Shown: positions 17,612 to 51,530 of the stretch, one piece after another
Position numbering within the stretch: the first letter of the stretch is position 1
How the letters are laid out: each line of letters begins with the position of its first letter
Source of the DNA: Arcicella aurantiaca
GTDB lineage: Bacteria; Bacteroidota; Bacteroidia; Cytophagales; Spirosomataceae
Direction: 5' to 3'
DNA length: 64,000 bases
Assembly (NCBI RefSeq): GCF_003148625.1
Contig: NZ_QGGO01000006.1
Span: 1-64,000, forward strand
Notes under the pieces: model-generated
Told to the model about the DNA's origin: nothing
Databases searched by the model: none
What the model saw: only the letters and a program-made list of their open reading frames with translations
Program-made: the position numbers and the translations under genes

Positions 17612-18382
17612 ATGGCAATACTACCAAATCAGCGACGAGATAAAATTTTAGAACTACTTAAAGAAGACGGTTCAGCCAAAGTGGTTGATTTATCGAGACT
17701 CTTTAAAGTAACGGAAGTCACGATTCGGCAAGACTTAGAAAAGTTAGAAAGCGAAGGCTTAATTATTAAAGAACACGGTGGAGCTTATTTGAAAAATGTT
17801 GAAGACCAAGTAAGAAGTTTTTCATTAGTGCATCAAGACAATCTTGATAAAAAAGAAAGAATTGCTCAAAAATGTTTAGAATTTATTGAAAGTGGCGATA
17901 CTATTATTTTGGATTCGGGAAGTACGACAACTGAAATTGCCAAGAAATTAAAAGGACTTAAAAACCTAACCGTCATTACAAATGCGTTAAATATCGCATT
18001 AATGTTGGGAACGGAGTCTGGGATTGAAGTTATTATGACAGGAGGGGAATTTAAACCACCAACCCTTTCATTAACAGGACAAAAAGCGGCAGATTTTTTT
18101 AAGGGATTGAACGTACAGAAACTATTTTTAGCAACGGCTGGAATCTCCTTAAAATCTGGACTTACATACCCGAGTATCAGCGACTTAGTGGTAAAAAAAG
18201 CAATGATTGATGCCGCAGAAGTTACTTATTTGGTAGCAGATAGTAGCAAAATTGGGAAAAGTGCTTTAGCAAGTTTAGGAGCGTTATCACTCATAGATTA
18301 TATCATTACCGATACAGGAATTGAGGAAAAACATAAGCAAGTTTTTAATGCTAATGAAATAGAATTGATTATTGCTAATTAA
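17612..18382 (+). CDS. DeoR-family transcriptional regulator
   Basis: A 256-residue cytoplasmic sugar-responsive regulator. The DeoR-type helix-turn-helix spans about 6-58 (RRDKILELLKEDGSAKVVDL, VTIRQDLEKLESEGLI), followed by GGAYL. The DeoRC sensor domain (about 75-235) has the typical ILDSGSTTTEIAKKL, VITNALNIA and KLFLATAGIS segments that bind a phosphorylated sugar. It is the first gene of a co-directional set running to 36433 (importer, isomerase, transketolase, kinase) and is the obvious candidate to control it, probably by repression relieved by a sugar phosphate. Confidence 0.9.
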   Translation: MAILPNQRRDKILELLKEDGSAKVVDLSRLFKVTEVTIRQDLEKLESEGLIIKEHGGAYLKNVEDQVRSFSLVHQDNLDKKERIAQKCLEFIESGDTIILDSGSTTTEIAKKLKGLKNLTVITNALNIALMLGTESGIEVIMTGGEFKPPTLSLTGQKAADFFKGLNVQKLFLATAGISLKSGLTYPSISDLVVKKAMIDAAEVTYLVADSSKIGKSALASLGALSLIDYIITDTGIEEKHKQVFNANEIELIIAN

Positions 18383-18386
18383 ATAG

Positions 18387-18544
18387 CCGTAGCCGTCAGG
18401 GAGACTAATTTTTGTGGTTGAAAATCTAAAATAATGTGAGGTCTGTTTATTTAATTCTCTCAAAAAAACTACTGAACTAAACTAAAAAGAGATAATTAAG
18501 TATCTAAATCAAATATTATTTTAATGTTGAACTGACGGCTTCGG
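18387..18544. repeat. Spaced inverted repeat between DeoR and DUF1593 genes
   Basis: CCGTAGCCGTCAG (from 18387) and CTGACGGCTTCGG (to 18544) are imperfect complements about 130 bases apart. The intervening sequence is AT-rich. It may be another intergenic palindromic element with a large centre, or a looped operator for the upstream DeoR regulator. I cannot tell which. Confidence 0.45.
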
Positions 18545-18589
18545 TATTTTTTAAAAGAAATATCCCAAAACAATTTCCATAAATCAATA

Positions 18590-20134
18590 ATGAAAAATAA
18601 GTTACTCTTCGTCTCGTTCTTGGCTGCATTGACGCTTTCTATATCAGATAATTTCGTCTCTGCTCAGGCATCAAATTCAATTATAAAAAAGACGGTTTCT
18701 TCAAAACCACGAACAATCGTTACCACCGATGGAGAATTAGACGATGTAGATTCATTCATTAGATTATTACTTTATTCAAACGAGTTTAATATTGAAGGCT
18801 TAATTATTTCAAGTTCTCAGTGGCATTATAAAGGTGATGGAAAAGGAACAAAATTCACCTCTGAAATGGAAACCACTAAAAAGATTTATGGAGAAAGAAC
18901 AGAATTGCGTTGGCCCGGTACAGACTGGATTTACAATTTGGTGGACGCTTATGGAAAAGTGTATCCAAATTTGAAAAAACACTCTACTGATTATCCTAAA
19001 CCAGAGCATCTGAAAAGTTTAATCAGCATTGGAAATATTGACTTTGAAGGTGAAATGGAGAAAAATACAGATGGCTCTAATTTTATCAAAAAGAAACTAC
19101 TTGATGACGATATGACACCGCTTTATTTGCAAGTTTGGGGTGGTACAAATACCATTGCAAGAGCATTGAAGTCAATCGAAGATGAATACAAAAACACCCC
19201 AAAATGGCAAGAAATTTATGCAAAAGTGTGCAAAAAAGCCATTATTTATGCGATTCTCGACCAAGATGCAACGTATAGAAAATACATAGAACCTAACTGG
19301 AAAGACATCAAGGTTTATTATAATTCAAATCAGTTTTGGAGTTTTGCTTACTTCTGGAAAAGAGCCGTTCCACAAGAACTTCACCCATATTTGGAAGGTA
19401 AGTTTATGAACAATATCATAAATAATCATGGGGCATTAACAAAAATGTATTATAGCTATGGCGATGGAAACCCTCCTGCGGGCGAAATTGACGATATTTA
19501 TAGTAGCATGGAAAAAGCTCAAAAAAATCAGTGGGGAAGTTTTGGGCAATATGATTTTATCTCAGAAGGAGATTCCCCTGCTTACTTGCATTTGGTTGAT
19601 ATTGGTTTAAATAATCTTAACAATCCACAAGATGGTGGTTGGGGCGGACGTTTGGTACAATCAACCAAAACACCAAGCCGTTGGGAAGATGGAGAAGCTG
19701 CCTCAGATTATAATCCATATACTAAAAAAATGGATAAAGCTTATGCACAAACTCGTTGGATTCCTGCCATTCAAAATGATTTTGCTGCTCGTGCTGATTG
19801 GTGTATTAAAGATTATAAAAATGCAAATCACGAACCTAAAATTAAATTAAATACTGCCTCAAAATTAACGGTTGCTCCTAATAGCACCGTAAAATTAAGC
19901 GGAACTGCAAGCGACCCTGACGGCAATACTGTAAATTATCATTGGTGGCAATATGACGAAGTAGATACTTACGGAGGTAAAGTTTCTATTCAAAATGCAG
20001 ATAGTAAAAGTGCGTCATTCAAAATGCCAAGTGACATAAAAAAAGGAGAAACAATACATTTAATATTAGAAGTAAAAGACAATGGAATTCCGCAACTAAC
20101 TCGTTATCAGCGAGTTGTTGTAATGGTAAAATGA
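18590..20134 (+). CDS. Secreted nucleoside-hydrolase-like protein (DUF1593), first paralogue
   Basis: A 514-residue secreted protein (signal peptide 1-26, ending SAQA). The N-terminal domain (about 40-330) resembles DUF1593 / inosine-uridine nucleoside hydrolases; TTDGELDDVDSF (about 45-56) resembles the calcium-binding aspartate cluster of that fold. The C-terminal domain (about 420-514) is an immunoglobulin/cadherin-like segment with GTASDPDGNTVNYHWWQYDE and a final TRYQRVVVMVK. Family members are often annotated cellulose-binding, but their reaction is not established. A second copy lies at 21880-23484, with the isomerase between. The context suggests it releases or processes a sugar imported by the ABC system downstream. 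Confidence 0.8.
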   Translation: MKNKLLFVSFLAALTLSISDNFVSAQASNSIIKKTVSSKPRTIVTTDGELDDVDSFIRLLLYSNEFNIEGLIISSSQWHYKGDGKGTKFTSEMETTKKIYGERTELRWPGTDWIYNLVDAYGKVYPNLKKHSTDYPKPEHLKSLISIGNIDFEGEMEKNTDGSNFIKKKLLDDDMTPLYLQVWGGTNTIARALKSIEDEYKNTPKWQEIYAKVCKKAIIYAILDQDATYRKYIEPNWKDIKVYYNSNQFWSFAYFWKRAVPQELHPYLEGKFMNNIINNHGALTKMYYSYGDGNPPAGEIDDIYSSMEKAQKNQWGSFGQYDFISEGDSPAYLHLVDIGLNNLNNPQDGGWGGRLVQSTKTPSRWEDGEAASDYNPYTKKMDKAYAQTRWIPAIQNDFAARADWCIKDYKNANHEPKIKLNTASKLTVAPNSTVKLSGTASDPDGNTVNYHWWQYDEVDTYGGKVSIQNADSKSASFKMPSDIKKGETIHLILEVKDNGIPQLTRYQRVVVMVK

Positions 20135-20154
20135 ATACTTTGAATGGGGGCAGA

Positions 20155-20230
20155 TGTAACACGGGAATTTCTTCCGTGAAGCAGAGTCAAGTCTATTTGT
20201 AGAATTCACGGGAAAGATTCCCGTGTTACA
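20155..20230. repeat. Inverted repeat of GTAACACGGGAAT words
   Basis: The outer arms TGTAACACGGGAAT (20155-20168) and its near complement ending at 20230 enclose an inner pair (TTCCGTGAA and TTCACGGGAA). It fills the spacer between the first DUF1593 gene and the isomerase. Arms of this kind look like a self-complementary mobile palindrome more than a simple terminator, because there is no T-tract. Confidence 0.8.
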
Positions 20231-20256
20231 AATAATATAAACGATTATTTAAAAAT

Positions 20257-21660
20257 ATGAAACAATTAAGTTTAGGCGTTATCATCGGGAATCGTAATTT
20301 TTTCCCTGATAGTTTAGTTGAATTAGCACGAGTTGAAATCATTGAAGTGCTAACAAAAATGAACATCAAACCAATTTTATTGGATAGTAACGATACAAAA
20401 TTAGGAGGTGTAGAAACATTTGGTGATGCTCAGAAATGTGCTACATTATTCAGACAACACGCCGACGAAATTGTAGGTGTATTGGTGGTACTACCAAACT
20501 TTGGTGATGAAAAAGGGGTTGCAGATACCCTCAAAATGGCAAACTTAAATGTGCCTGTTTTAATTCAAGGTTATCCAGATGATTTAAACAAATTGGATGT
20601 TGCTCGCAGACGTGATTCGTGGTGTGGCAAAATTTCGGTTTGTAATAATTTATACCAATATGGAATTAAATTCTCATTGACATCTCAACACGTTGTTAGA
20701 CCATCTGACGCAAGTTTTCAGCAAGAATTGAAAGATTTTATGGCTGTTTGTAGAGTTGTAAAAGGTCTGAAAAATGTAAGAATTGGAGCAATCGGAGCAA
20801 GACCAACTGCCTTTAATACAGTACGTTACAGTGAAAAAATCTTACAAAGAAACGGTATTTCAGTAGTTACTTGTGACCTTTCTGAAATTCTTGGAAAAGC
20901 TAATAAATTAACAAAAGACGATTCAGTTGTAAAAGAACGTTTAGAGAAAATCACTAATTATGCCAAAACGGGAAAAACGCCAAGTGAAGCGTTAATTCAG
21001 ATTGCCAAATTAGATGTTGTTCTGAATGATTTTATGGCTGAAAACGTACTTGATGCAACGGCTATTCAATGCTGGACTTCATTACAACAAAATTATGGTT
21101 GTAATGTATGTACAAGTATGAGTATGATGTCTGAAAATATGTTGCCAAGTGCTTGTGAAGTTGATGTAACAGGAACGCTGTCAATGTATGCGATGCAATT
21201 AGCGTCTGGTTCGCCAAGTGCTTTGGTAGATTGGAACAACAATTATGCAGATGATGAAAACAAATGCGTTTTATTCCACTGTGGAAACTGGGCAAAATCA
21301 TTCTTACCAGATATTGAAATTAGTAACGCTCCAATTTTAGGAACTACCGTTGGCGTAGAAAATACCTACGGAGCATTAGATGGAAGAACACCAGCCATGC
21401 CTTTAACTTACGGACGTTTAAGCACAGACGATTCAAAAGGAATTATCAAAGCGTATATAGGTGAGGGTGACCTTACTGATGATGCACTAAATACATTTGG
21501 AAACCGTGCCGTTGCCAAAATTCCTGATTTACAGAAATTAATGCAATACGTTTGTAGAAATGGATTTGAACATCACGTAGTAATGAATGCGTCGAAAACA
21601 GCAGGCATTTTGAAAGAAGCATTTGAAAATTATATGGGTTGGGAAGTTTACCAACACTAA
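20257..21660 (+). CDS. L-fucose/L-arabinose isomerase-family sugar isomerase
   Basis: A 467-residue cytoplasmic aldose-ketose isomerase-like protein. The overall plan is that of the L-fucose/L-arabinose isomerase superfamily: N-terminal Rossmann-like segments (VIIGNRNFFPDSL, VLVVLPNFGDE), a middle domain (about 170-290, IGAIGARPTAFNTVR, with NYGCNVCTSMSMMSENMLPS and ACEVDVTG), and a C-terminal barrel domain with HCGNWA. ACEVDVTGTL carries glutamate and aspartate residues expected of the Mn2+ site. It is not close to canonical FucI or AraA, so the substrate is open. With a split transketolase and an FGGY kinase in the same run, an aldose such as D-apiose is a plausible substrate. It lies between two DUF1593 paralogues. 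Confidence 0.78.
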   Translation: MKQLSLGVIIGNRNFFPDSLVELARVEIIEVLTKMNIKPILLDSNDTKLGGVETFGDAQKCATLFRQHADEIVGVLVVLPNFGDEKGVADTLKMANLNVPVLIQGYPDDLNKLDVARRRDSWCGKISVCNNLYQYGIKFSLTSQHVVRPSDASFQQELKDFMAVCRVVKGLKNVRIGAIGARPTAFNTVRYSEKILQRNGISVVTCDLSEILGKANKLTKDDSVVKERLEKITNYAKTGKTPSEALIQIAKLDVVLNDFMAENVLDATAIQCWTSLQQNYGCNVCTSMSMMSENMLPSACEVDVTGTLSMYAMQLASGSPSALVDWNNNYADDENKCVLFHCGNWAKSFLPDIEISNAPILGTTVGVENTYGALDGRTPAMPLTYGRLSTDDSKGIIKAYIGEGDLTDDALNTFGNRAVAKIPDLQKLMQYVCRNGFEHHVVMNASKTAGILKEAFENYMGWEVYQH

Positions 21661-21879: not shown

Positions 21880-23484
21880 ATGAAAAAGCTTACAAATTTC
21901 CTTCATAATTGTACCAAAGCAAACATACTTTTTTGCGTAACAACCATTATCTCAATCGTTTACACAAATAATTTATTGGCTCAAATTACGGATAAAACAA
22001 AACCACGAATTGTAATCACTGCTGACCCAGAATTAGATGATAACAATTCGCTTATTCGTTTTATTTTGTACAGTAGCGACCTCGACGTTGAAGGACTCAT
22101 TTATACAAGTAGTGGTTTTCACTGGAAAGGCGATGGAAAAGGAACAAAATGGTTTGTTCCAGGAAGAGAATATGCTCGTTTTGGCTTAAATGAATGTCCA
22201 TGTACTTCGTGGCGTTGGGCTAAGGATGAACGATTTATCCATGATATTGTAGATGCTTACGAAAAATCATATCCAAATTTAAAAGTTCATAATCCAGAAT
22301 ATCCTGACCCAAAAATATTAAAGTCAAAGATTAAATATGGAAATATTGAATTTGATGGCGAAATATCAAAAAATACCGAAGGCTCAAACTTAATCAAATC
22401 ATTGATTTTAGATAATAAGCCCGGTCAATTGTACATTACTGCTTGGGGCGGACAAAGCACTATTGCAAGAGCTTTAAAATCAATCCAAGAAGATTATGAA
22501 TTTACTGTTGAATGGGAAAATATCAAGAAGAAAATCAACCGAAAAGTTGTCCTTTTACCTTCTGGCGACCAAGACGATACTTATGCAACCTACATTAAAC
22601 CAAATTGGCCAGACATTGAATACAGACAATTTAGTGGCGGACCAAATTATGGATATGGAGCTCAATTAAGAGCTACCAAAGGAGATTCTTTATATTTAAC
22701 AGCATCATGGATGAAAGAAAATGTATCAGACAGAGGAGCTTTGGGTAGTTTATACAGAGTTTGGGGCGATGGAAAACAGATGGTAAAAGGAGATAAATTA
22801 GATTATTTTGGATTGTCGGGACACTCTAACGAAGAACTCAAAAAAATGGGTTATGCGGTTTGGATGCCTGTTCAGCCAAAAGGAACTTGGTTGGGCGAAG
22901 GCGATAATCATACCTTTATGAATATGCTTGGCAATGGTTTACGTGCCTATGAATTAGGCACTTACGGAGGTTGGGGCGGTAGTGTAAATAGCAAAAGAGA
23001 AGCTATCAATTTTGCAACTCCAACGGATACAAGTGCCAATGCAATGGCAAATATGTTAGGTTCGATGAACACGAAAAATGCCGAGGGAATGGCTTATCCA
23101 AACTTTTTTCCACAGGCTCAACAAAGTTTTGCGGCAAGATTAAAATGGGCGGTTACGCCTCAATATACAAATGCCAATCATGAACCCATCGTTAATGTGG
23201 AAGGAACTATGACAGTGATGGCTTCGGCAGGTGAAAAAATTAGATTAAATGGAATGGTGTCTGACCCTGACGGAAATACCGTTACCCCAAAATGGTGGCA
23301 ATTGAATGTTGGAACTTATCTTAACAAAGTGCAAATTTTAACACCAAATGCTTTGCGAACAGAAGTTCAGATTCCGAAAGATGCCGTGGGTGGACAAACA
23401 ATTCATTTGATTTTTGAAGGAACTGACAATGGAACACCGTCGCTAACAAAGTATCAGCGAGTAATCATTCATGTTAGAAAATAA
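21880..23484 (+). CDS. Secreted nucleoside-hydrolase-like protein (DUF1593), second paralogue
   Basis: A 534-residue secreted relative of the protein at 18590-20134. The signal peptide is long (cleavage near 35, NNLLAQ). The nucleoside-hydrolase-like domain carries ITADPELDDNNSLIRF (about 46-61) in place of the TTDGELDDVDS of its paralogue, so the aspartate cluster is kept with changes. The C-terminal Ig-like domain (about 440-534) has GMVSDPDGNTVTPKWWQLNV and ends TKYQRVIIHVRK. Both copies share the WGG(T/Q)(N/S)TIARALKSI segment. Divergence suggests two related substrates rather than a recent duplication. It precedes the transketolase subunits by 69 bases. Confidence 0.8.
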   Translation: MKKLTNFLHNCTKANILFCVTTIISIVYTNNLLAQITDKTKPRIVITADPELDDNNSLIRFILYSSDLDVEGLIYTSSGFHWKGDGKGTKWFVPGREYARFGLNECPCTSWRWAKDERFIHDIVDAYEKSYPNLKVHNPEYPDPKILKSKIKYGNIEFDGEISKNTEGSNLIKSLILDNKPGQLYITAWGGQSTIARALKSIQEDYEFTVEWENIKKKINRKVVLLPSGDQDDTYATYIKPNWPDIEYRQFSGGPNYGYGAQLRATKGDSLYLTASWMKENVSDRGALGSLYRVWGDGKQMVKGDKLDYFGLSGHSNEELKKMGYAVWMPVQPKGTWLGEGDNHTFMNMLGNGLRAYELGTYGGWGGSVNSKREAINFATPTDTSANAMANMLGSMNTKNAEGMAYPNFFPQAQQSFAARLKWAVTPQYTNANHEPIVNVEGTMTVMASAGEKIRLNGMVSDPDGNTVTPKWWQLNVGTYLNKVQILTPNALRTEVQIPKDAVGGQTIHLIFEGTDNGTPSLTKYQRVIIHVRK

Positions 23485-23553: not shown

Positions 23554-24360
23554 ATGACAAGTATAGAATTGCAAGAGAAGTCTCGGATTTATAGAAGAAA
23601 AATCCTCGAATACATCTACAAAGCCAAAGCAGGTCACACAGGTGGAAGTTTATCTTGTATCGACATTCTGAATGTATTGTACAACGATACGATGAATGTA
23701 AATCCTGAAAATTTCAAGTCTGGCGACAGAGACAGATATATCCAAAGTAAAGGACACTGCGTTGAAGCCCTTTTTGTGGTTTTGGCAGATAAAGGATTTT
23801 TCCCAGAAACCGACCTTGAAACATTGTGTAAATATAAGTCGCATTATATCGGGCATCCAACTCGTAAAGTCAATGGCGTAGAACAAAATACGGGGGCTTT
23901 GGGTCATGGTTTACCAATTTGTGTTGGTACAGCTTTGGCGGCAAAAATGGACGAAAAATCTTACCGAGTATTTACTTTATTGGGTGATGGAGAATTGCCA
24001 GAGGGTTCAAATTGGGAAGCATTTTTATCAGCATCTCATTATAAGTTAGATAATTTATGTGCCATTTTGGACTACAATAAATTACAAATTACAGGTAAAA
24101 ATGCCGATGTTTTAAATACCGAACCTATTGCTGACAAGCTAAAAAGTTTTGGTTGGGCAGTACGTGAAGTAGATGGAAACGACCCTCAAAAATTAAAAGA
24201 AACATTAGACCAATTACCTTTTGAGGAAGGAAAACCAAGTTTTGTGATTGCTCATACCATCAAAGGGAAGGGTGTAAGTTACATGGAAAATCAATTAAAA
24301 TGGCATCATGGCGTTCCTTCTGCGGAACAATATGAATTGGCAATTTCTGAACTATCTTAA
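23554..24360 (+). CDS. Split transketolase, N-terminal (TPP-binding) subunit
   Basis: A 268-residue subunit corresponding to the first third of transketolase. It shows AGHTGGSLSCIDIL (about 27-40), the thiamine diphosphate motif GDGELPEGSNWEA ... DNLCAILDYNK (about 147-179) and IKGKGVSYME. With the next gene it should make one active alpha2beta2-type enzyme that transfers a two-carbon ketol unit. Split transketolases are known for dedicated sugar pathways (apulose-4-phosphate AptAB, sulfosugar SqwGH) as well as for general use. The gap to the C-terminal subunit is two bases, so the two are translationally linked. Confidence 0.92.
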   Translation: MTSIELQEKSRIYRRKILEYIYKAKAGHTGGSLSCIDILNVLYNDTMNVNPENFKSGDRDRYIQSKGHCVEALFVVLADKGFFPETDLETLCKYKSHYIGHPTRKVNGVEQNTGALGHGLPICVGTALAAKMDEKSYRVFTLLGDGELPEGSNWEAFLSASHYKLDNLCAILDYNKLQITGKNADVLNTEPIADKLKSFGWAVREVDGNDPQKLKETLDQLPFEEGKPSFVIAHTIKGKGVSYMENQLKWHHGVPSAEQYELAISELS

Positions 24361-24362: not shown

Positions 24363-25382
24363 ATGAATGATATAAAAATGCCCACGGTAGGGCTTGCAAA
24401 TCTTGAAGTTTTTGCCGCCACACTCGAATCGCTCGCTGCGGTGGATAGAAATATTATTGCTGTAACAAGCGACTCACGAGGTTCTGGTAAATTAACGCCT
24501 TTCGGTCAGAAATTTCCAAAACAAATTGTTGAAGTCGGTATTGCAGAACAAAACTTAGTTGGTGTTGCCGCAGGTTTAGCTTCGGCAGGCAAAACCGTTT
24601 TTGCGGTATCTCCTGCTTGTTTCTTGACGGCAAGAGCCTTAGAACAAATTAAAAATGACGTTGCCTATTCTGATAATGCAGTCGTGTTGGTCGGAATCAG
24701 TGCGGGGGTAAGCTACGGAGCATTGGGTACGACGCATCATAGTTTACATGATTATGCCGTTTTGAGAGCCATTAATAATTTAGTGGTGGTTGCTCCTGCT
24801 GATAATTTTGAAACGGAACAAGCCATTTTACAAGCAGCGGCTCTTAAAAAACCCATTTATTTGAGATTTGGGAAAAAGAATATGCCCGTTGATTTAGTTA
24901 TTAGTGATTGGTCGGGCGGTGTTCCGCAATTGGTTACTGGTGAAAAAACCGATAACCAATCAACCAGTAACCTGTTTCAACTCGGAAAAGGAAGAGTAAT
25001 CAGAGAAGGTTCAGACCTAACTTTTATCGGCACAGGAGAAACTGTTTTACCTGCTTTTGAAGCTGCTGAAAAATTAGCATCTGAACATGGAATCCAAGCA
25101 AAAGTGGTGAGTATGCACACCATTAAACCGCTGGATTATGAATTAATAAATACGATTGCTTCGGAAGGGAAACCGATAATCACAGTTGAAGAACACATGG
25201 TGAATGGAGGTTTAGGTGAAGCGGTTGCATCATATTTAATGCAAAATGCACATCGTAACTCATTCAAAATCATGGGAATTCCTGACGAATATACTGTTAC
25301 GGGTTCACAAAATGAGATTTTCAAGCATTATGAAATCACGGGAGAAGGCATAGCGAAAGAGGCATTAAAATTATTGGCTTAA
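24363..25382 (+). CDS. Split transketolase, C-terminal subunit (carries an in-frame repeat-derived insert)
   Basis: A 339-residue subunit with the pyrimidine-binding domain (about 8-180, VEVGIAEQNLVGVAAGLA with the conserved glutamate, YGALGTTHHSLHDYAVLR) and the C-terminal transketolase domain (about 205-335, TFIGTGETVLPAFEAAEKL, TVEEHMVNGGLGEAV). Between the domains, residues 190-203 (LVTGEKTDNQSTSN) are encoded by a short inverted repeat of the same words that fill the spacers at 1-258 and 1804-2240. The frame is kept and the insert lies in an interdomain linker, so the enzyme is probably still active. The stop overlaps the next ATG (TAATG). Confidence 0.9.
   Translation: MNDIKMPTVGLANLEVFAATLESLAAVDRNIIAVTSDSRGSGKLTPFGQKFPKQIVEVGIAEQNLVGVAAGLASAGKTVFAVSPACFLTARALEQIKNDVAYSDNAVVLVGISAGVSYGALGTTHHSLHDYAVLRAINNLVVVAPADNFETEQAILQAAALKKPIYLRFGKKNMPVDLVISDWSGGVPQLVTGEKTDNQSTSNLFQLGKGRVIREGSDLTFIGTGETVLPAFEAAEKLASEHGIQAKVVSMHTIKPLDYELINTIASEGKPIITVEEHMVNGGLGEAVASYLMQNAHRNSFKIMGIPDEYTVTGSQNEIFKHYEITGEGIAKEALKLLA
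24932..24972. repeat. Intragenic TTGGTTACTGGT palindrome in the transketolase C-subunit gene
   Basis: GGTTACTGGT (24932-24941) and ACCAGTAACC (24963-24972) are perfect complements, with GATAACCAAT between. The words are those of the aldarate-operon elements. The stretch translates as LVTGEKTDNQSTSN. Confidence 0.85.
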
Positions 25383-26998: not shown

Positions 26999-27150
26999 TT
27001 AGAAACATGAATATCAATTAAAGATTGTTTCTTAAAATGCGAGCACCAATAATTTTTATGGATATTTCTGCGTATGTTTTTGCGTGAAAATGGATAAATT
27101 TTGAATTATTCGTATAAAATCGAAATTTATGAATATTTTTGAATAAAAAT

Positions 27151-28219: not shown

Positions 28220-29131
28220 ATGAAAAATTATCTCTTTTTAATTTTATTGCTATTAGGCTGTCAGACAAAAACGACTGATAACTCGCCTAAAAAAGTAGCG
28301 GTAATCATTTCAACGCTCAATAATCCTTGGTTTGTAGTGTTGGCGGAAGCCGCTGCTGCAAAAGCAAAAGAATTGGGTTATGAAGCAAAAATATTTGATT
28401 CTCAGAATAATACGGCACTCGAAACTGACCATTTTGATAATGCCATTGCCTCTGGATATGATGCCGTTTTGTTCAATCCTACTGATGCCGATGGTTCAGT
28501 TGTGAATGTAAAAAAGGCGAAAGAAGCAGGTGTAGCAGTATTTTGTATTGACCGAGAAGTGAATTCTGCCGATGCAGCTACTTCGCAAATTCTTTCAGAT
28601 AATTATTCGGGCTGTGTTTCTATCGGAAAATATTTTGTTGAAACGATGAATAAAAAAGGCAAATACGTTGAATTGCTTGGTTTGGTGGGAGATAATAACA
28701 CTTGGAATCGTTCAAAAGGTTTTCATTCGGTAGTTGATAAATTCCCAGAATTGAAAATGGTTGCTCAACAAAGTGCCGATTTTGACCGTAATAAGGGCTT
28801 GGAAGTAATGGAATCAATTTTACAGGCACATCCAGATATTACTGCCGTTTTTTGTGGCAACGATGCGATGGCGATGGGAGCTTTTCAAGCATTAATTTCT
28901 TCTGGAAAAGCCAATCAAGTAAAGGTTTTTGGTTTTGACGGTGCAGACGATGTGTTGAGTTCAATCAAAAGCAAAAAGATTTCAGCGACGTGTTTGCAGT
29001 TTCCAAAATTGATGGCACAAACGGCGGCTATTTTTGCCGACGAATATTTTAATGGTAAACGAGATTTTCCTAAAAAAATGCCCGTAGCCGTTGAATTAGT
29101 TTCACAAAAAAACATCGCCGACTATGAATAA
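28220..29131 (+). CDS. Ribose-type (RbsB-like) sugar-binding lipoprotein
   Basis: A 303-residue periplasmic-binding protein of the Peripla_BP_4 class, lipid-anchored through the cysteine in LLLLGCQTK (about residue 14). Typical segments are VAVIISTLNNPWFVVLAEAA (about 26-45), DAVLFNPTDADGSV, FCIDREVNS, GLVGDNNTWNRSKGFHSV, AVFCGNDAMAMGAFQAL and KVFGFDGADDV. The binding residues (N, R, D, N, D) sit where RbsB/AraF relatives place them, so a pentose or similar monosaccharide is likely. It overlaps the DUF2291 gene by eight bases and works with the ATPase and permease downstream. Confidence 0.9.
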   Translation: MKNYLFLILLLLGCQTKTTDNSPKKVAVIISTLNNPWFVVLAEAAAAKAKELGYEAKIFDSQNNTALETDHFDNAIASGYDAVLFNPTDADGSVVNVKKAKEAGVAVFCIDREVNSADAATSQILSDNYSGCVSIGKYFVETMNKKGKYVELLGLVGDNNTWNRSKGFHSVVDKFPELKMVAQQSADFDRNKGLEVMESILQAHPDITAVFCGNDAMAMGAFQALISSGKANQVKVFGFDGADDVLSSIKSKKISATCLQFPKLMAQTAAIFADEYFNGKRDFPKKMPVAVELVSQKNIADYE

Positions 29132-29741
29132 GATTCTAAAAAATATTCTTGGAATAATCGTTTTAGGAGTTGTTGCTTACAACTCTGTGTATTTTAAAAA
29201 GTTGGACGAAGTTAAAAAAGGTAATGGCAAAAATACATTAGATGCAAAAGCTTATGCAAACAGTTTTTATCAGGATAAAATCTTGCCAAATTCTAATAAA
29301 GCCATCGCAATCAATGAGTTAACTGAAAAATTGAAATCGAATCCCGAAGAAACTTTCAAACAATTTGCACATTCATTGGGTATCGGGAATATTCGTTATT
29401 TTTTGATAAAAGCTACAGGAAATGTTACGAAAATCAACGAAAACACCATTGATATTGAAGTAGATGGAAAACCATATTCAGTAGCTACTGAGTTTATTTT
29501 TGGTAATGCTGTTAGAGATGCTTCTGGAATCATAACGATGACTACTTTTGATAATACAATGGATTTCAACAATGTGTCCTCAGAATTAAATGAGATTATT
29601 CGTAATAAAGTTGTACCAAATTTAAAGAAAAAAGCAACGCTTGGAAGTCAAATTAGTTTGGTTGGAGCAGTAGAATTAAATCAAAAACACTTGAAATTGA
29701 ATGAGATAGAGGTAATACCAGTTTCACTTAATGATAAGTGA
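29124..29741 (+). CDS. DUF2291-family membrane-anchored protein of a sugar ABC system
   Basis: A 205-residue protein with one N-terminal hydrophobic anchor (about 5-24, ILGIIVLGVVAYNSVYF) and a periplasmic remainder (about 30-205). The DUF2291 pattern is visible: DAKAYANSFYQDKILPN, GIGNIRYFLIKATGNV and a C-terminal VVPNLKKKATLGSQISLVGAVEL. Family members regularly accompany ribose-type importers, but their function is not known. The start codon overlaps the end of the binding-protein gene. Two AACTTCCCGAAAGTT palindromes separate it from the ATPase gene. Confidence 0.85.
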   Translation: MNKILKNILGIIVLGVVAYNSVYFKKLDEVKKGNGKNTLDAKAYANSFYQDKILPNSNKAIAINELTEKLKSNPEETFKQFAHSLGIGNIRYFLIKATGNVTKINENTIDIEVDGKPYSVATEFIFGNAVRDASGIITMTTFDNTMDFNNVSSELNEIIRNKVVPNLKKKATLGSQISLVGAVELNQKHLKLNEIEVIPVSLNDK

Positions 29742-29872: not shown

Positions 29873-31372
29873 ATGATTTTACAAGTCCAAAATATAACCA
29901 AACGTTTCTCTGGTGTTGCGGCACTTGAAAATGTCAATCTTGCCTTCGCAAAAGGAAAAGTTACTGCTGTGTTGGGTGAAAACGGAGCAGGCAAATCAAC
30001 TTTAATGAAAATTTTGTCGGGTGTTTATCCCGATTACGAAGGACAAATTATCTATAAGAATCAATCTGTTCATTTTGCCAATACAAAAGATGCTCAAAAT
30101 GTAGGAATCGCTATTATTCACCAAGAATTAAATTTAATTCCATATCTGAGCATTCAAGAAAATATTTTTCTTGGGCGTGAACTTACCAATTCTTGGGGTG
30201 TACTTGATAAAAAAGCTATGTTAGCAAAAACTTCTGAATTGCTAAATACGCTTAAATTATCGCTCAATCCAGAAACATTAGTTGCTGACCTTAAAATTGG
30301 ACAACAACAAATTATAGAAATTGCCAAAGCTTTATTGCTTGATTCTGAGGTGATTATCATGGACGAACCTACTTCTGCAATATCAGATTCGGAGGTTGAA
30401 GTGCTTTTTAGTATCATCAACGATTTGCTAAATGCTGGGAAATCAATTATTTATATTTCTCACAAATTAGACGAGCTTCGCAAAATTGCTCATAATTATG
30501 TGATTCTTCGAGATGGGAAAAGTATTGATTCGGGAGAATTAAAAGATATGACCCATGATGAACTGATTGCCAAAATGGTGGGTCGGGAAATTAAAATGAT
30601 GCAAAGAAACGTTCCAGATTTCTCCGAAAATAATTTGTTAAAAGTTGAGAACTTATCTTTAAAATCAACACAGAAAAATAAGGATTCAATTCTCAAAGAC
30701 ATCAATTTCCATCTTAAAAAAGGTGAAATTTTAGGAATTTGTGGTTTAATGGGAGCAGGAAGAACCGAACTATTCGAAACGCTTTTTGGCTTACACCCAC
30801 AAAATATTGAAGGTAAAATATCAATAAATGGAAGTGATTGTAAATTCAAAAAACCGTCCGATGCCATTAATGCGGGTTTAGCTTTTGTAACCGAGGACCG
30901 CAAGCACGAAGGTTTAGTCTTAGGAATGTCCGTTAGAGAGAATTTATCAATTACTACCTTAAAAGATTTACAAAAAGGATTTTTTGTTGATGAAAAAGCG
31001 GAAGTAAATTTAACAGCCGACTACATTAAAACGCTGAATATCAAGACATCAAGTCAAGAACAATTTGTAAAAAATTTAAGCGGTGGCAATCAACAGAAAA
31101 TTGTAATAGCCAAATGGTTAGCAACAAAACCGCAGATTTTATTATTGGACGAACCCACCAGAGGCGTTGATATTGGGGCAAAAAATGAAATTTATAAAAC
31201 CATTGTCCAATTAGCAGATGAAGGTTTGGGTATAATTGTCGTTTCATCAGAATTACCTGAAATTATGCTATTAGCTGACCGTATTTTGGTGATGGCAGAG
31301 GGAAAAATCACCGCAGAAATGCGTAAAGAAGAAGCCACAGAAGATAAAATTTTAAAAGCAGCAATTATCTGA
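29873..31372 (+). CDS. Ribose-type sugar ABC transporter ATPase (RbsA-like, two cassettes)
   Basis: A 499-residue cytoplasmic ATPase with two nucleotide-binding domains in tandem. The first has Walker A GENGAGKST (about 36-44), LKIGQQQIIEIAKAL in place of the signature, and Walker B IIMDEPTSA. The second has the degenerate Walker A GLMGAGRTE (about 294-302), signature LSGGNQQKIVIAKWL and Walker B LLLDEPTRGVDIG. A diverged second P-loop is normal in RbsA/XylG/MglA proteins. It powers the permease encoded next. The spacer to the permease gene is a repeat palindrome that begins inside the stop codon. Confidence 0.93.
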   Translation: MILQVQNITKRFSGVAALENVNLAFAKGKVTAVLGENGAGKSTLMKILSGVYPDYEGQIIYKNQSVHFANTKDAQNVGIAIIHQELNLIPYLSIQENIFLGRELTNSWGVLDKKAMLAKTSELLNTLKLSLNPETLVADLKIGQQQIIEIAKALLLDSEVIIMDEPTSAISDSEVEVLFSIINDLLNAGKSIIYISHKLDELRKIAHNYVILRDGKSIDSGELKDMTHDELIAKMVGREIKMMQRNVPDFSENNLLKVENLSLKSTQKNKDSILKDINFHLKKGEILGICGLMGAGRTELFETLFGLHPQNIEGKISINGSDCKFKKPSDAINAGLAFVTEDRKHEGLVLGMSVRENLSITTLKDLQKGFFVDEKAEVNLTADYIKTLNIKTSSQEQFVKNLSGGNQQKIVIAKWLATKPQILLLDEPTRGVDIGAKNEIYKTIVQLADEGLGIIVVSSELPEIMLLADRILVMAEGKITAEMRKEEATEDKILKAAII

Positions 31373-31451: not shown

Positions 31452-32408
31452 ATGAAAAATATAGCTAAATTCCAGTCACTTATCGCATTATTTATTTTAT
31501 GCGTTTTGATAAGTTTTTTGTCGGATAAATTTTTGACAGTTAATAATGGGTGGAATGTTTTACGTCAGATTTCAGTCAATATTGTTATTTCTGTGGGCAT
31601 GACATTGGTCGTTCTCACCGCAGGAATTGACCTTTCCGTAGGCTCAATTTTGGCAATTAGTGGAGCTGTCACGGCAGGTTTGCTTAAAAACGGCATTGCC
31701 ATTCCTTCGCTCAATTTGTTCATCGGTTTTTCTTTGTTAGGAGCAATTTTAGCGGGTTTAATCGTTGGGTCGCTATCAGGTTTTTTTAGTGGATTTACCA
31801 TTACTCGTTTCAAAATTCCTCCATTTGTTGCAACGCTCGCCATGCTGACCATCGCTCGTGGTTTGACGATGCTTTATACCGAAGGTTTCCCAATTTCAGA
31901 ATTAGGTGAAAACTTCGCTTTCTTTGGTACAGGCTGGCTTTTAGGCATTCCCGTACCTGTTTGGATATCAGGATTAGTAATTTTAGTAGCCGTTTTAATG
32001 ACTCAAAAAACACGTTTGGGGCGTTACATTTATGCGATTGGTGGCAACGAAAATGCGGCAAGATTATCAGGAATTAACATCAATCAAGTAAAAATATTTG
32101 TGTATTCTGTGGCAGGAATGTTAGCAGCCGTTGGTGGTATTTTGGTAACTTCTCGTTTAGATTCTGCACAACCAAACGCAGGAATTAGTTACGAATTAGA
32201 TGCTATTGCAGCCGTAGTAATTGGCGGAACATCGCTTTCGGGAGGCAGAGGAACAATTATGGGTACAGTTTTGGGTGCAGTTATTATTGGTGTTTTAAAC
32301 AACGGTTTAGTTTTACTTGACGTTTCGCCATTTTGGCAACAAGTGGTAAAAGGATTAGTGATTTTGGTTGCGGTAATTATTGATAAGCAAAACAGTAAGC
32401 AGGATTAA
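31452..32408 (+). CDS. Ribose-type sugar ABC transporter permease (RbsC-like)
   Basis: A 318-residue inner-membrane permease with about eight to ten hydrophobic segments. Family marks are VISVGMTLVVLTAGIDLSVG (about 46-65), FVATLAMLTIARGLTMLYTE, YAIGGNENAARLSGI (the ATPase-contact EAA-like loop), AAVVIGGTSLSGGRGTIMGT (the most conserved RbsC region) and VVKGLVILVAVIID. With the ATPase, binding protein and DUF2291 it forms one complete importer of pentose/ribose type. Length and motifs are normal. Confidence 0.93.
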   Translation: MKNIAKFQSLIALFILCVLISFLSDKFLTVNNGWNVLRQISVNIVISVGMTLVVLTAGIDLSVGSILAISGAVTAGLLKNGIAIPSLNLFIGFSLLGAILAGLIVGSLSGFFSGFTITRFKIPPFVATLAMLTIARGLTMLYTEGFPISELGENFAFFGTGWLLGIPVPVWISGLVILVAVLMTQKTRLGRYIYAIGGNENAARLSGININQVKIFVYSVAGMLAAVGGILVTSRLDSAQPNAGISYELDAIAAVVIGGTSLSGGRGTIMGTVLGAVIIGVLNNGLVLLDVSPFWQQVVKGLVILVAVIIDKQNSKQD

Positions 32409-32436
32409 AGCAGGTTAATATTTTAGGGTAAATACT

Positions 32437-32444
32437 TACATTTG
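32437..32444 (+). promoter_or_regulatory. Candidate -7 element (TACATTTG) before the beta-lactamase/YdjC fusion gene
   Basis: An exact TAnnTTTG match 41 bases before the ATG, in the 76-base spacer after the permease gene. No good -33 TTTG was found. If real, the fusion gene and kinase have their own promoter. An imperfect pair TATTTTAGGGTAAAT / ATTTATCCTAAATA brackets the element. Confidence 0.4.
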
Positions 32445-32484
32445 TTTAAAAACAATCTCAACACAAAATTTATCCTAAATACTA

Positions 32485-34821
32485 ATGAAAAAACTGTTTT
32501 TACTTCTTCTTTTAAGCGTTGAAATATTCGCTCAAAAAAACAATTCACTTCCAAGAAGTACGCCCGAAGCTGAAGGAATTTCTTCCGAAGCAATCAACAA
32601 TTTTATTGATGCAGTTTCAAATAGTAAACACGAACTGCACAGTTTTATGATTGTCCGACATGGAAAAGTTGTCGCTGAAAGTTGGTGGAATCCATATCGT
32701 TCTGATTTAAAACATACCCTTTATTCAACGAGTAAAAGCTTTACGGCAACCGCAATTGGTTTTGCTGTTGCTGAGAAAAAACTTACGGTTGACGACAAAG
32801 TAATTTCGTTTTTTCCCGAAGATTTGCCTGCGAAGGTGAGTCCAAATTTGGCGGAATTAAAAATCAAAGATTTATTGAGCATGAGTGTTGGGCATGAAAA
32901 AGAAAATTCTGCCATTATTGCCACAACCGACAATTGGGTGAAAGGCTTTTTAAATACGCCTATTGCTTATAAACCCGGTACAAAGTTTTTGTATAATTCA
33001 CCCGCAACTTATATGTTATCGGCAATTGTGCAAAAAGTAACGGGACAAAAAGTTATTGATTACCTAAAACCACGATTATTTGAGCCTTTGGGAATTTCGG
33101 GTATGGATTGGGAAGTTGACCCTAAAGGTATCAATACAGGCGGTTGGGGCTTGCGACTCAAAACCGAAGATATGGCAAAATTTGGTCAGTTATTCCTTCA
33201 AAAAGGTATTTGGAATGGCAAACAAATTTTACCTGCTTCATGGATTGAAGAAGCATCAACCATGAAAATCATGCAAAATCCTGATGCTCCACAAGCCAAA
33301 AAAGACTCAAGTGACTGGCTACAAGGTTATTGCTACCAAATGTGGCGTTGTAGAAATAACGGTTTTCGTGCAGACGGAGCGAATGGACAGTATGTAATTG
33401 TGTTACCCGAAAAAGACGTTGTAATTGCCGTAACTGCTGAAACCACTGATATGCAGGGTGAAATCAATTTAATTTGGAAATATCTTTTACCTGCATTTCA
33501 AGCTAAAAAATTGCCCGCAAATAACACTTTGTTTTCAAGTTTAAAGGCAAAAGAAGCAAGTTTAGCCTTAGCAATACCGAGTAAAAATGTTCTTTCTGAG
33601 TCTGAAACAAAAGTTTCTGGTAAAAACTTTGGGATATTTTCAAGCAATAGAAGTTTTGAAACTATTTCATTCGATTTCAACAATGAAACTTGTATCGTAA
33701 ACTTAAAATCTGATTCTACGACGCACAAACTTGCATTTGGTGCGGGAAAATGGGAATTGGGTGAAACAACAAAATTTGGTCCTTATTTGGTAGAACGTGG
33801 CAGAGCAAACCGAGTAGGTTTACCTGCGTTTAAAGTTGCTGGTAGCTATACTTGGAAAAATGCCAAAACCTTAGAATTAACCCTTCGTTACATCGAAAGT
33901 CCACATACTGAAACCATCGTTTGCACTTTTGATGGCGACTATGTGAACATTGATTTCCAAAGTATTTTTAACCAAAAGGCAAAACGTTTTATCTCGAAAG
34001 GTGTTTTAGTAAATAATGTCTCGAATCCTGCGAAATTGATAATTAGAGGTGATGACATGGGTTATTCTCATGCTGGAAATGAGGCACTTATCAAGTCATT
34101 TACGGAAGGAATCGAAACCTCAATTGAAGTAATTGCTCCTTCACCTTGGTTTCCAGAAGCAGTAAAATTATTAGCTCAAACACCAAAAGTGGACGTTGGT
34201 TTGCATTTTGCCATAACCAGCGAATGGGATAATATCAAGTGGAGACCTTTAACAGATGCACCGAGTTTGAGAAACAAAGATGGGTATTTTTACCCGATGC
34301 TTTTCCATAATCCCAATTATCCGAAACAAGCAGTTATTGACAACGATTGGAAAATTGAGGATATTGAAAAAGAATTAAAAGCACAAATTGAATTGGCGTT
34401 AAAATATATTCCTCGACTAAGCCATATTTCTGGACACATGGGAAGTACAGGTTTTACTGAAGAGGTAAAAAATATGGCTCGTCGGGTAGCAAAATCTTAT
34501 AATTTGAAAATGGTTGACGTTGATTCTCAGAAAGATAACGACATTGCTTATGTTGGTTTTGATTTCAACAATAAAACTACCGAAGAAAGAATTCAAGGAT
34601 TTATTGCGATGTTGGACAAATTAGAAAATGGTAAAAACTATGTTTTTGTAGAACATCCCGGACTCGATAACGACGAATTAAAGGCAATTTCTCATATCGG
34701 TTATGAAGACGTTGCACAAGGACGACAAGATGTTACAACCATTTTTACCAACGAAAAAGTAAAAGAAGCAATCCTTAAAAAAGGAATCAAATTGGTGAGT
34801 TATAAAGAGGTTTTTAAATAA
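32485..34821 (+). CDS. Fusion: serine beta-lactamase-fold hydrolase + YdjC/ChbG-like deacetylase
   Basis: A 778-residue secreted protein (signal peptide 1-16, IFAQ) joining two hydrolases. Residues about 25-345 are a class C beta-lactamase/esterase-type domain with SxxK (S81-K84, YSTSKSF) and the YNSPATYML segment. Residues about 370-500 are a beta-rich linker domain of lipocalin type. Residues about 512-778 are a YdjC/ChbG-like domain: LIIRGDDMGYSHAGN (about 516-530) supplies the metal-binding aspartates, with VGLHFAITSEWD and HISGHMGSTGF the histidines. ChbG removes acetyl groups from chito-oligosaccharides; here a deacylase for the imported glycan is possible. The reading frame is open throughout, so the fusion is real in this sequence. 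Confidence 0.85.
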   Translation: MKKLFLLLLLSVEIFAQKNNSLPRSTPEAEGISSEAINNFIDAVSNSKHELHSFMIVRHGKVVAESWWNPYRSDLKHTLYSTSKSFTATAIGFAVAEKKLTVDDKVISFFPEDLPAKVSPNLAELKIKDLLSMSVGHEKENSAIIATTDNWVKGFLNTPIAYKPGTKFLYNSPATYMLSAIVQKVTGQKVIDYLKPRLFEPLGISGMDWEVDPKGINTGGWGLRLKTEDMAKFGQLFLQKGIWNGKQILPASWIEEASTMKIMQNPDAPQAKKDSSDWLQGYCYQMWRCRNNGFRADGANGQYVIVLPEKDVVIAVTAETTDMQGEINLIWKYLLPAFQAKKLPANNTLFSSLKAKEASLALAIPSKNVLSESETKVSGKNFGIFSSNRSFETISFDFNNETCIVNLKSDSTTHKLAFGAGKWELGETTKFGPYLVERGRANRVGLPAFKVAGSYTWKNAKTLELTLRYIESPHTETIVCTFDGDYVNIDFQSIFNQKAKRFISKGVLVNNVSNPAKLIIRGDDMGYSHAGNEALIKSFTEGIETSIEVIAPSPWFPEAVKLLAQTPKVDVGLHFAITSEWDNIKWRPLTDAPSLRNKDGYFYPMLFHNPNYPKQAVIDNDWKIEDIEKELKAQIELALKYIPRLSHISGHMGSTGFTEEVKNMARRVAKSYNLKMVDVDSQKDNDIAYVGFDFNNKTTEERIQGFIAMLDKLENGKNYVFVEHPGLDNDELKAISHIGYEDVAQGRQDVTTIFTNEKVKEAILKKGIKLVSYKEVFK

Positions 34822-34854
34822 GTAAGAAATTTAGAATTGATAAGGTAATCAAAA

Positions 34855-34883
34855 CATAGTCAACTTTTGAAAAGTTGACTATG
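34855..34883. repeat. Palindrome CATAGTCAACTTTT before the kinase gene
   Basis: Perfect 14-base arms (34855-34868 and 34870-34883) around one base. It lies in the 94-base spacer between the fusion gene and the FGGY kinase. A single-arm relative (AAAGTTGACTAT) appears near 6297. It could terminate the upstream gene or be another dispersed palindrome. Confidence 0.8.
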
Positions 34884-34915
34884 CTAAAGTTGAAATAAAA
34901 TTATTAAAATTAAAT

Positions 34916-36433
34916 ATGAAATTCGTTTTAGCTATCGACCAAGGAACAAGCAGTACCAAAACATTGATATTTGACAATGCGGGAAAAGCTGTTGCGAAAG
35001 GTTGTGTTGATTTAAAGACAAATCATTTCGATAATGGTTTTGTGGAACAAGACCCAGAAGGAGTTTATCAAAATGTGTTGGATTCTGTTCAAGAATGTCT
35101 TGAAGATTTTTCGTCAAAAGGATTTGATATTCAAGACATTGCTTCGTGTGGAATTAGTAATCAACGTGAGACTTTTGTACTTTGGGACAAAGCAGGAAAC
35201 GCTCAAAGTCCTGCCGTTGTGTGGGCTTGTAAACGTTCAATTTCTATTTGTGAAGACCTAAAATTGAAAGGTCAAGAGCCATTAATTAAAGAAAAAACAG
35301 GCTTAATCATTGACCCTTATTTTTCGGGAACAAAATTGCTTTGGCTTTTGCAAAATGATTCGGAATTAAAAGCTAAAGTTGAAGCAGGAGAAATATTTTT
35401 TGGAACGGTTGACTGTTGGGTTTTATACAAAATGACCAATGGCAAGTCTTTCAAAACGGATTACACCAACGCTTCAAGAACCTTATTTTTCAATATTCAT
35501 ACCTTAACTTGGGACGCTGATATTTTAAAACTTTGGGGATTAGAAAATCTAAATTTACCAGAAGTATGTCCTTCATCTTCGGATTTTGGAGTATTCGATT
35601 TACGATTGTTAGAACAGACTAATAGTAATCGTAAATCTCAAATCGTAAATCGTAAACTACCCATTACTTCATTAATCGGAGATTCTCATGCGGCTACTTT
35701 TGGAGAAGGTTGTTTTGAACAAGGTACTGCCAAAGTTACTTTAGGAACAGGGAGTTCAATTATGATGAATATTGGCTCGAAACCAGTGACATCTGCCAAT
35801 GGAATGTTAACAACCATTTGTTGGAGTACCGAAAACCGTGTTGATTATGCTTTGGAAGGAGCAATTGTGTCTTGTGGTTCAACGATTGAATGGCTAAAAA
35901 ATGAATTAAATCTATTTCAAAATCCTGCCGAAACCGCTGAAATGGCAAATTCAGTTACGGATAATGCTGGTGTATATTTAATTCCTGCCTTTAGCGGTTT
36001 GGGAGGTCCACATTGGCAAATGAACCGTAGAGCTTCCATTGAAGGAATGACTTTTGGCACGACTAAAAATCATATCGTTCGTGCGGCATTAGAAAGCATT
36101 CCGTATCAAATAAAAGATGTTGTTACCGCAATGGGGCAAGATATGCAAGCTCCTTTGAAGTCAATTTCTGTCAATGGCGGTATGACTCGAAATGAATTTG
36201 TCATTAAGTTTTTAGTTGATTTATTAGGTTTATCACTCAAAAAACAACAAAATGCCGATGTTTCGGCTTTGGGAGCTGCATATTTATCAGGACTAAAAAG
36301 TGGCGTTTACGAAAGCATTGAACAGCTAAAAGCTATTAATCAACGCCAAACAGAAGAAATTTCACCTAATTTGAGCAACCAAATTGTTCATAAAGGCTAT
36401 GAAGGTTGGCAGAAAAAAATCAACTTTCAATAG
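34916..36433 (+). CDS. FGGY-family carbohydrate kinase (glycerol-kinase-like; carries an in-frame repeat-derived insert)
   Basis: A 505-residue cytoplasmic sugar kinase. The N-terminal FGGY domain opens with AIDQGTSSTKTLIFD (phosphate 1 loop) and includes ISNQRETFVLW and IIDPYFSGTKLLWLL; the C-terminal domain includes GAIVSCGSTIEWL, FSGLGGPHW and ISVNGGMTRNEFVIKFLVDL. Overall it is nearest glycerol/xylulose/erythritol-type kinases. Residues about 228-247 (DLRLLEQTNSNRKSQIVNRK) come from a GATTTACGATT inverted repeat and sit just before the conserved LIGDSHAATFGEG, probably as an added surface loop. As the last gene of the sugar run it is a candidate ketose kinase, for example apulose kinase. 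Confidence 0.85.
   Translation: MKFVLAIDQGTSSTKTLIFDNAGKAVAKGCVDLKTNHFDNGFVEQDPEGVYQNVLDSVQECLEDFSSKGFDIQDIASCGISNQRETFVLWDKAGNAQSPAVVWACKRSISICEDLKLKGQEPLIKEKTGLIIDPYFSGTKLLWLLQNDSELKAKVEAGEIFFGTVDCWVLYKMTNGKSFKTDYTNASRTLFFNIHTLTWDADILKLWGLENLNLPEVCPSSSDFGVFDLRLLEQTNSNRKSQIVNRKLPITSLIGDSHAATFGEGCFEQGTAKVTLGTGSSIMMNIGSKPVTSANGMLTTICWSTENRVDYALEGAIVSCGSTIEWLKNELNLFQNPAETAEMANSVTDNAGVYLIPAFSGLGGPHWQMNRRASIEGMTFGTTKNHIVRAALESIPYQIKDVVTAMGQDMQAPLKSISVNGGMTRNEFVIKFLVDLLGLSLKKQQNADVSALGAAYLSGLKSGVYESIEQLKAINQRQTEEISPNLSNQIVHKGYEGWQKKINFQ
35597..35658. repeat. Intragenic GATTTACGATT palindrome in the kinase gene
   Basis: GATTTACGATT (35597-35607) and AATCGTAAATC (35627-35637) are perfect complements 19 bases apart. 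Two further copies of ATCGTAAA follow up to about 35658. The words are the same as those in the spacer 31371-31451, 4 kb upstream. The reading frame continues through it. Confidence 0.87.
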
Positions 36434-51529: not shown

Positions 51530-51530
51530 T

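Follow-up and report, generated by a model that had tools for sequence, protein, structure and literature searches.

An operon of Arcicella aurantiaca, conserved in Bacteroidota, probably serves D-apiose utilisation by a non-oxidative route

Apiose is a branched-chain sugar found in the cell walls of plants. The non-oxidative pathway of D-apiose utilisation that Carter et al. reportedly described in 2018 is said to run through the isomerase ApsI, the kinase AptK and the split transketolase AptA/AptB. Here we analysed a candidate for such a pathway in Arcicella aurantiaca, an operon at positions 17,612 to 36,433 of the window, by which we mean the whole stretch of 64,000 nucleotides under study (contig C6, positions 1-64000, of a 5.93 Mb genome in 70 contigs). 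In the accessible part of PMC13001218, strains of E. coli, E. fergusonii and Pectobacterium that carry an apiose cluster are reported to grow on D-apiose and K-12 is not; the same part identifies the aptA, aptB and kinase genes of strain SE15, gives Escherichia two putative oxidoreductases in place of apsI, and mentions apsI for Pectobacterium. We consider it very probable that the Arcicella operon serves D-apiose utilisation of the non-oxidative (AptK/AptAB) kind, as a first-pass annotation had proposed. Apiose is the best-supported substrate because of the kinship of the gene products with AptA, AptB and AptK, the kinase site signature, the presence of the isomerase homologue in Apt clusters, and the PF13204 genes that neighbour the operon in Bacteroidota, Listeria and Monoglobus.

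The DeoR regulator, isomerase, split transketolase, kinase, importer and two DUF1593 genes listed by the first-pass annotation were all recovered in place. The genes of the operon are as follows.

17612-18382, forward strand: DeoR-family regulator (Pfam DeoRC, 171 bits)
18590-20134, forward strand: DUF1593/Sde182 nucleoside-hydrolase-like protein with a signal-like N terminus, candidate secreted apiose-releasing enzyme (PF07632, 237 bits)
20257-21660, forward strand: ISO, a protein of L-fucose/L-arabinose isomerase fold, proposed D-apiose isomerase (PF02952, Fucose_iso_C, the sole Pfam match)
21880-23484, forward strand: second DUF1593/Sde182_NH-like protein, also with a signal-like N terminus (PF07632, 199 bits)
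23554-24360, forward strand: TKn, AptA-like N subunit of transketolase, binding thiamine diphosphate (ThDP) (similarity to E. coli SE15 AptA; tree)
24363-25382, forward strand: TKc, AptB-like C subunit of transketolase (similarity to E. coli SE15 AptB)
25382-26998, forward strand: relative of DUF5060/PF13204/DUF5605 glycoside hydrolases (PF13204, 64.5 bits; PDB 4n0r, 701 bits)
27139-28206, forward strand: Fic-family gene with a TTG start, between the hydrolase and sugar-binding protein genes
28220-29131, forward strand: sugar-binding protein (SBP) of an ABC importer (Thermotoga maritima ribose-binding protein, tmRBP, 2fn8, 363 bits; pocket NWFDRRFNDQ)
29124-29741, forward strand: DUF2291 protein (PF10054, 189 bits)
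29873-31372, forward strand: importer ATPase (PF00005, two stretches)
31452-32408, forward strand: importer permease (PF02653)
32485-34821, forward strand: beta-lactamase/YdjC fusion, between the permease and kinase genes
34916-36433, forward strand: AptK-like kinase of the GlpK subfamily of FGGY, proposed apulose kinase (542 bits, TIGR01311 cut-off 590)

Loci with relatives of ISO were found in at least 570 stretches, of which we kept the best 80; ISO is 78-97% identical in these, and all come from organisms that we take to be Bacteroidota. Open reading frames (ORFs) were called for TKn in 77 of the 80 loci, TKc in 75, the SBP in 67, DUF2291 in 65, the ATPase and the kinase in 62 each, the permease in 61 and the DeoR regulator in 59, numbers that are affected by the contig ends cutting several loci; tblastn found a DeoR homologue in 61. 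The commonest order was DeoR-ISO-TKn-TKc-SBP-DUF2291-ATPase-permease-kinase, and six loci (L037, L039, L041, L076, L077 and L080) had an ISO-TKn-TKc-kinase run with no importer genes within it. ISO was present in 43 of 121 genomes of the window's family. The gene set is a conserved operon of Bacteroidota and not a chance assembly. The Fic gene looks like an insertion, because it had no match at E 1e-15 in the 80 other loci. The beta-lactamase/YdjC fusion was matched in a single locus (L007, 73%), where it also adjoins the permease gene. A phage-type integrase gene (16277-17245) and a serine resolvase gene (37997-38599) flank the operon and may indicate past mobility.

BLAST comparison with E. 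coli SE15 gave identities of 49% for TKn, 38% for TKc, 35% for the kinase, 36% for the SBP, 42% for the ATPase and 43% for the permease; the DUF2291 protein had no BLAST match in SE15 and is shared by family annotation only. When E. coli AptA was compared with 149 Bacteroidia genomes, the top four matches were ISO-linked (265, 264, 260 and 249 bits) and the next scored 226 bits, the two other transketolase N halves of the Arcicella genome reaching 182 and 171 bits. A tree of 54 rows sampled one in four of the 73 operon N halves and excluded L108 and L120 because of their ORF length; ISO-linked rows from Bacteroidota formed one group in it (100/100), and the genome's own housekeeping pair stood apart from the operon pair. 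Grouping of the pair with housekeeping enzymes, which the first annotation had named as an outcome that would refute apiose, was rejected on both the AptA search scores and the tree placement. A wider 100/100 group took in three genes from O-antigen-type clusters as well as another gene of the Arcicella genome. The next-best relatives of the AptA kind, at L104, L105 and L107 (L163-L165), are 48-50% identical to the window's protein, and were discarded as further AptA clusters for their O-antigen-type surroundings where these were checked (seven proteins of L164, one of L163). O-antigen-type clusters with AptA-like pairs also carry sugar transferase, methyltransferase and aminotransferase genes, and the pairs perhaps make an unusual sugar there. 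Separate frames of TKn size, about 275-400 amino acids, were the usual AptA match in Bacteroidia, with matches in 133 of the 149 genomes; according to the accessible part of PMC7661550, split-gene transketolases are confined to archaea and certain thermophilic bacteria.

The kinase, annotated at first as an FGGY kinase, does belong to FGGY and, more exactly, to its glycerol kinase subfamily, scoring below the equivalog cut-off for GlpK. We compared seven positions that we take to form the GlpK substrate site (E. coli numbering). All 66 operon-type rows (the window, the 62 kinases of the 80 loci, L160, Listeria and Monoglobus) read REWYDSS and all five enterobacterial AptK-type rows REWLDSS; REWYDQF was found in all 24 GlpK rows that cover every site, a truncated GlpK reading DQF where present, and XylB and FucK differed from all other rows. 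The window's kinase thus keeps R83, E84, W103, Y135 and D245 of GlpK. S246 and S270 are common to the operon kinases and AptK, and Q246 and F270 occur in every GlpK aligned, so that a two-residue signature tells the AptK type apart from glycerol kinases. A kinase tree of 56 rows, with every third operon kinase included and long branches flagged, placed the 24 GlpK rows on one side (98/99) and the operon kinases, AptK and two Bacillota rows outside it; the tree leaves the mutual order of these three sets open and does not imply a single origin with AptK. Glycerol kinase was rejected as an identity, with the genome's own GlpK lying elsewhere (C46) and both Q246 and F270 changed. Chemically, a kinase like GlpK but with a wider site would suit apulose, because apulose ends in C(OH)(CH2OH)2, which is glycerol plus one substituent.

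ISO is a single-copy protein in the genome, and its sequence gave no meaningful match in the PDB. Foldseek (best E 3e-16) assigned its predicted model to the AraA/FucI fold; the model has a mean pLDDT of 72, with low values near the putative site (269-302 and 342-375), and was used for the fold only. E301, D325, H341 and H440 were invariant in five aligned sequences from Bacteroidota, Enterobacterales, Listeria and Monoglobus, and the spacing of 24 between E301 and D325 equals that between E337 and D361 of E. coli FucI, which we take to be metal residues.

A plasmid collection held 15 records matching ISO, three of them, from Rahnella, Sodalis and Klebsiella INF102, at 54-55% (53-54% when whole proteins are compared) and the others below 30%. 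In these three the order is SBP-DUF2291-ATPase-permease, regulator, aptA-aptB-ISO-kinase, and identities to SE15 are 78-79% for AptA, 73-76% for AptB, 70-72% for AptK and 72-76% for the regulator. The SE15 pair of short-chain dehydrogenase/reductase (SDR) genes recurs in Klebsiella (record L134; one gene at 94%, the other at 76% over the part available). Neither SDR was matched within the 11.6 kb of INF102; Sodalis has one match, at 25-27% and about 6.5 kb beyond the kinase, and Rahnella two, at 29-35%, one directly upstream of the SBP gene. Clusters with ISO thus lack the SDR pair proper, with a reservation for the Rahnella SDR gene near the SBP. On the simplest reading of these sequences, ISO would fill the step that the SDR pair performs in E. 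coli, apiose isomerisation, and would be the ApsI mentioned for Pectobacterium. Because its homologue follows AptB in the close enterobacterial AptA/B/K clusters, ISO is probably the usual D-apiose isomerase, and the earlier suggestion that an isomerase of this type marks a pathway variant is probably wrong.

We then examined genes for sugar-releasing enzymes in and near the operon. The hydrolase at 25382-26998 had been called an apiosidase relative coupled to the transketolase. The coupling was borne out, as the first base of the gene overlaps the last base of the TKc gene; the protein consists of DUF5060, PF13204 and DUF5605, lacks PF12904 and so does not have the GH140 architecture. It is 43% identical to a protein beside the same genes in Monoglobus, and tblastn matched it in seven of the 80 loci, six as whole ORFs and L060 weakly. 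Only two PF13204 matches occur in the genome, both on the window's contig. Three further genes of this contig are relevant.

45902-47461, reverse strand: glycoside hydrolase, 50% identical to the gene after the kinase in four of six Chitinophagales loci described below
60332-63076, reverse strand: alpha-L-rhamnosidase, bordering a run of pectin-type genes that extends beyond the end of the window
68190-69635 of C6, beyond the window: GH140-architecture protein (370 bits, with PF12904)

The GH140-type gene lies about 32 kb past the operon, in a pectin-type run that encodes a GH141-domain protein, the GH140-architecture protein, DUF6298, GH2 and GH106. Enzymes such as BT1012 and BT1020 and those of GH141 and GH106 act on rhamnogalacturonan II (RG-II). 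Six Chitinophagales loci (L041, L064, L067, L073, L075 and L080) have an RG-II-type run on one strand with DUF6298, GH140-type, GH43-like, BT_1020-like, ISO, TKn and TKc genes, to which L073, L075 and L080 add one gene. Pfam assignments were made on L073 (PF13204 at 372 bits with PF12904; PF24067) and, for the GH43-like protein, on L064. The other loci are 57-65% identical to L073 in the GH140-type protein and 72-79% in the BT_1020-like protein, and the latter of L073 scored 752 bits against PDB 5mqr. L035 and L042 hold relatives of the GH140-type protein at 29-31%. In Listeria and Monoglobus, too, the last gene of the ISO-TKn-TKc-kinase run is a PF13204 gene (313 and 60 bits, respectively), preceded in Listeria by a transporter gene.

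The two DUF1593 genes of the operon are the only PF07632 matches of the genome. The DUF1593 cluster comprised 57 ORFs, fragments included, in 36 of the 80 loci, and 27 member genes lay between core genes. A listed copy stood no more than 10 kb from ISO in 33 of the 43 family genomes with ISO (0.29 expected, given genome size and the copies listed) and no more than 20 kb away in 37 (0.57 expected), although the genomes are mutually related and the tail value is therefore not a true probability. DUF1593 was present in 41 of the 43 genomes with ISO and in 56 of the 78 without it (Fisher p 0.0016), and the family therefore also occurs independently of ISO. Among sequences longer than 380 residues, D47, D51 and D52 were kept in 52 of 53 and D328 in all 53. 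One member (L006) is fused to DUF5060, a domain that the operon hydrolase also has; the six RG-II-type loci with a GH140-type gene close to ISO had no DUF1593 match, and L035 and L042 hold both DUF1593 and the GH140-type relative. From the proximity to ISO, the Asp cluster, the DUF5060 fusion and the absence from the six GH140-type loci, we tentatively suggest that DUF1593/Sde182_NH-like proteins might form a new secreted apiofuranosidase family of nucleoside-hydrolase fold that feeds the operon by cleaving pectic or flavonoid beta-D-apiofuranosides, by analogy with the action of nucleoside hydrolases on beta-D-ribofuranosides. The family is a new lead, a testable candidate for sugar release.

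From the gene content, conservation, kinship and site residues we propose a sugar, a series of reactions and a regulator. The secreted DUF5060-type hydrolase, the GH140-type enzyme and perhaps the DUF1593 proteins would free apiose from plant material, and the importer (SBP, DUF2291, ATPase and permease) would take it up. ISO would convert D-apiose to D-apulose, and the GlpK-like kinase would phosphorylate one arm of the branched end of apulose to give apulose 4-phosphate. The split transketolase would then transfer a ketol unit onto glyceraldehyde 3-phosphate, yielding dihydroxyacetone phosphate and xylulose 5-phosphate, with the set presumably under the control of the DeoR protein. A widespread conserved operon, whose parts score as ribose, fucose and glycerol genes in family libraries, would thereby be assigned to a sugar of RG-II. 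The core pathway is already known, and it is the association with DUF1593 that is new. A text search of the literature found an apiose isomerase in PMC13001218 only and nothing for apulose, DUF2291 or DUF1593, which is weak evidence, as the search for split transketolases missed PMC7661550 over its wording.

Several observations weigh against apiose, and many of them favour an operon for D-ribose or D-arabinose. In that case DUF1593 would free ribose, a ribose importer would take it up, ISO would form D-ribulose, the kinase would form ribulose 5-phosphate and the transketolase would feed the pentose phosphate pathway. At the ten ribose contacts of tmRBP listed in the accessible part of PMC2630998, the SBP was identical to tmRBP in 67 of 67 Bacteroidota rows (the window and 66 of 67 called proteins, a 119-residue fragment being dropped). 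The first-pass annotation had held that a binding protein preferring a common pentose would speak against apiose, and in part this is what we found, the pocket being ribose-type as far as sequence can tell. The ATPase is also nearer to E. coli RbsA than to the SE15 apiose importer (45% against 42%), and the permease to RbsC (52% against 43%). However, in the three enterobacterial clusters that contain an ISO homologue the SBPs have an RbsB-like pocket, NFFDRRWNDQ, with F164W as the sole difference from RbsB, so that a ribose-type pocket is compatible with apiose. By alignment the pocket of Rhizobium etli 4ry0/5ibq is RbsB-like too, and 5ibq was presumably crystallised with apiose; the SBPs of the SDR-type clusters of E. 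coli and Klebsiella differ more (NYYNRRGNDL). PMC3750489, in its accessible part, assigns to ribose and D-arabinose a ribose operon of Thermotoga that encodes a transketolase and two enzymes predicted to act on D-arabinose, and reports 14-92-fold induction on ribose and nearly as strong induction on xylose. T. maritima, our control genome, matches PF13204, and the Thermotoga operon may therefore be worth a second look. The nucleoside-hydrolase-like nature of DUF1593 would suit a nucleosidase role, and an IU_nuc_hydro-cluster gene lies between the transketolase halves in L059, L060 and L068 (Pfam on L060 only). On the other hand, a search of the window and the 80 loci at E 1e-3 matched neither E. 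coli ribokinase nor RbsD, where the RbsB control matched in 70 of 81; a ribokinase-family match above the cut-off lies elsewhere in the genome and has one stop in the matched frame. A ribose route would not need a dedicated transketolase, and neither the GH140- and BT_1020-type neighbours nor the ISO homologue within close AptA/B/K clusters fits it. Taken together, these data make a ribose or D-arabinose operon improbable.

Other points temper the apiose assignment itself. The growth of natural E. coli carriers of the apiose cluster is a correlation, not a knockout result. The operon transketolases join AptA, with Bacillota rows, at 86/86 only, a node that is not starred. The kinase exceeds the broader NCBIfam GlpK model NF000756 (531 against 498 bits), a model that is too broad to separate the two kinds of kinase. 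In the window's family a listed PF13204 match lay within 20 kb of ISO in 5 of the 43 genomes (0.39 expected), and within 10 kb in the window genome only, whose weak match was added by hand when those of other genomes were not listed. This closeness is modest, and the argument from apiosidases therefore rests on other families and phyla. An apiose pathway with another order of steps, in which the transketolase splits unphosphorylated apulose and the kinase then phosphorylates the dihydroxyacetone released, would agree with the five GlpK residues that the kinase retains; sulfosugar transketolases, too, act on an unphosphorylated ketose. Yet the loss of Q246 and F270 to serine, common to AptK, would suit a substrate larger than glycerol or dihydroxyacetone, and we regard this order as very unlikely. 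A sulfosugar transketolase route, also raised at first annotation, draws on the occurrence of split transketolases in such routes and on the weak score of ISO with the sulfoquinovose isomerase model (98 bits, cut-off 700). The Pfam matches of the 40 window proteins scanned include no GH31, the importer is ribose-type, and the ISO homologue lies within close AptA/B/K clusters, all of which make this route exceedingly improbable. D-apiose utilisation remains the reading that we favour.

A second catabolic run in the window (50606-57746) encodes a xylose-isomerase-like TIM barrel, an esterase-like protein, an SSF transporter, an SBD_N/NBD_C kinase, PdxA and a DHDPS-family protein; some of its Pfam families also occur near ISO in L039 and L076.

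Among the known systems, the Listeria and Monoglobus sets share the ISO-TKn-TKc-kinase order, a PF13204 gene and the kinase signature, but their ISO is only 25-26% identical, and the transporter is of the phosphotransferase type within the run in Listeria and of the rbs type a few kb upstream in Monoglobus. The T. maritima rbs operon resembles the Arcicella operon in its SBP (58% over the aligned model) and, according to the accessible part of PMC3750489, in its transketolase beside two predicted D-arabinose enzymes; it differs in having a ribokinase, the comparison beyond the SBP being by description only. The pathway reported by Carter et al. has in common with the operon an isomerase, a kinase, a split transketolase and an importer of the CUT2 type, the differences lying in the regulator, DeoR in Arcicella, and in the DUF1593 partners; sequences were compared for the E. 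coli SE15 Apt proteins only. The clusters of SE15 and of Klebsiella pKLP00155_2 have homologous AptA, AptB, AptK, SBP, ATPase and permease, and DUF2291 by annotation, but carry two SDR genes, no isomerase-family gene, and a regulator annotated as 'sugar-binding' in place of DeoR. The Rahnella, Sodalis and Klebsiella INF102 clusters differ in gene order and regulator, and include neither DUF1593 nor PF13204 among the genes annotated there, but contain all core parts of the Arcicella operon, including the ISO homologue.

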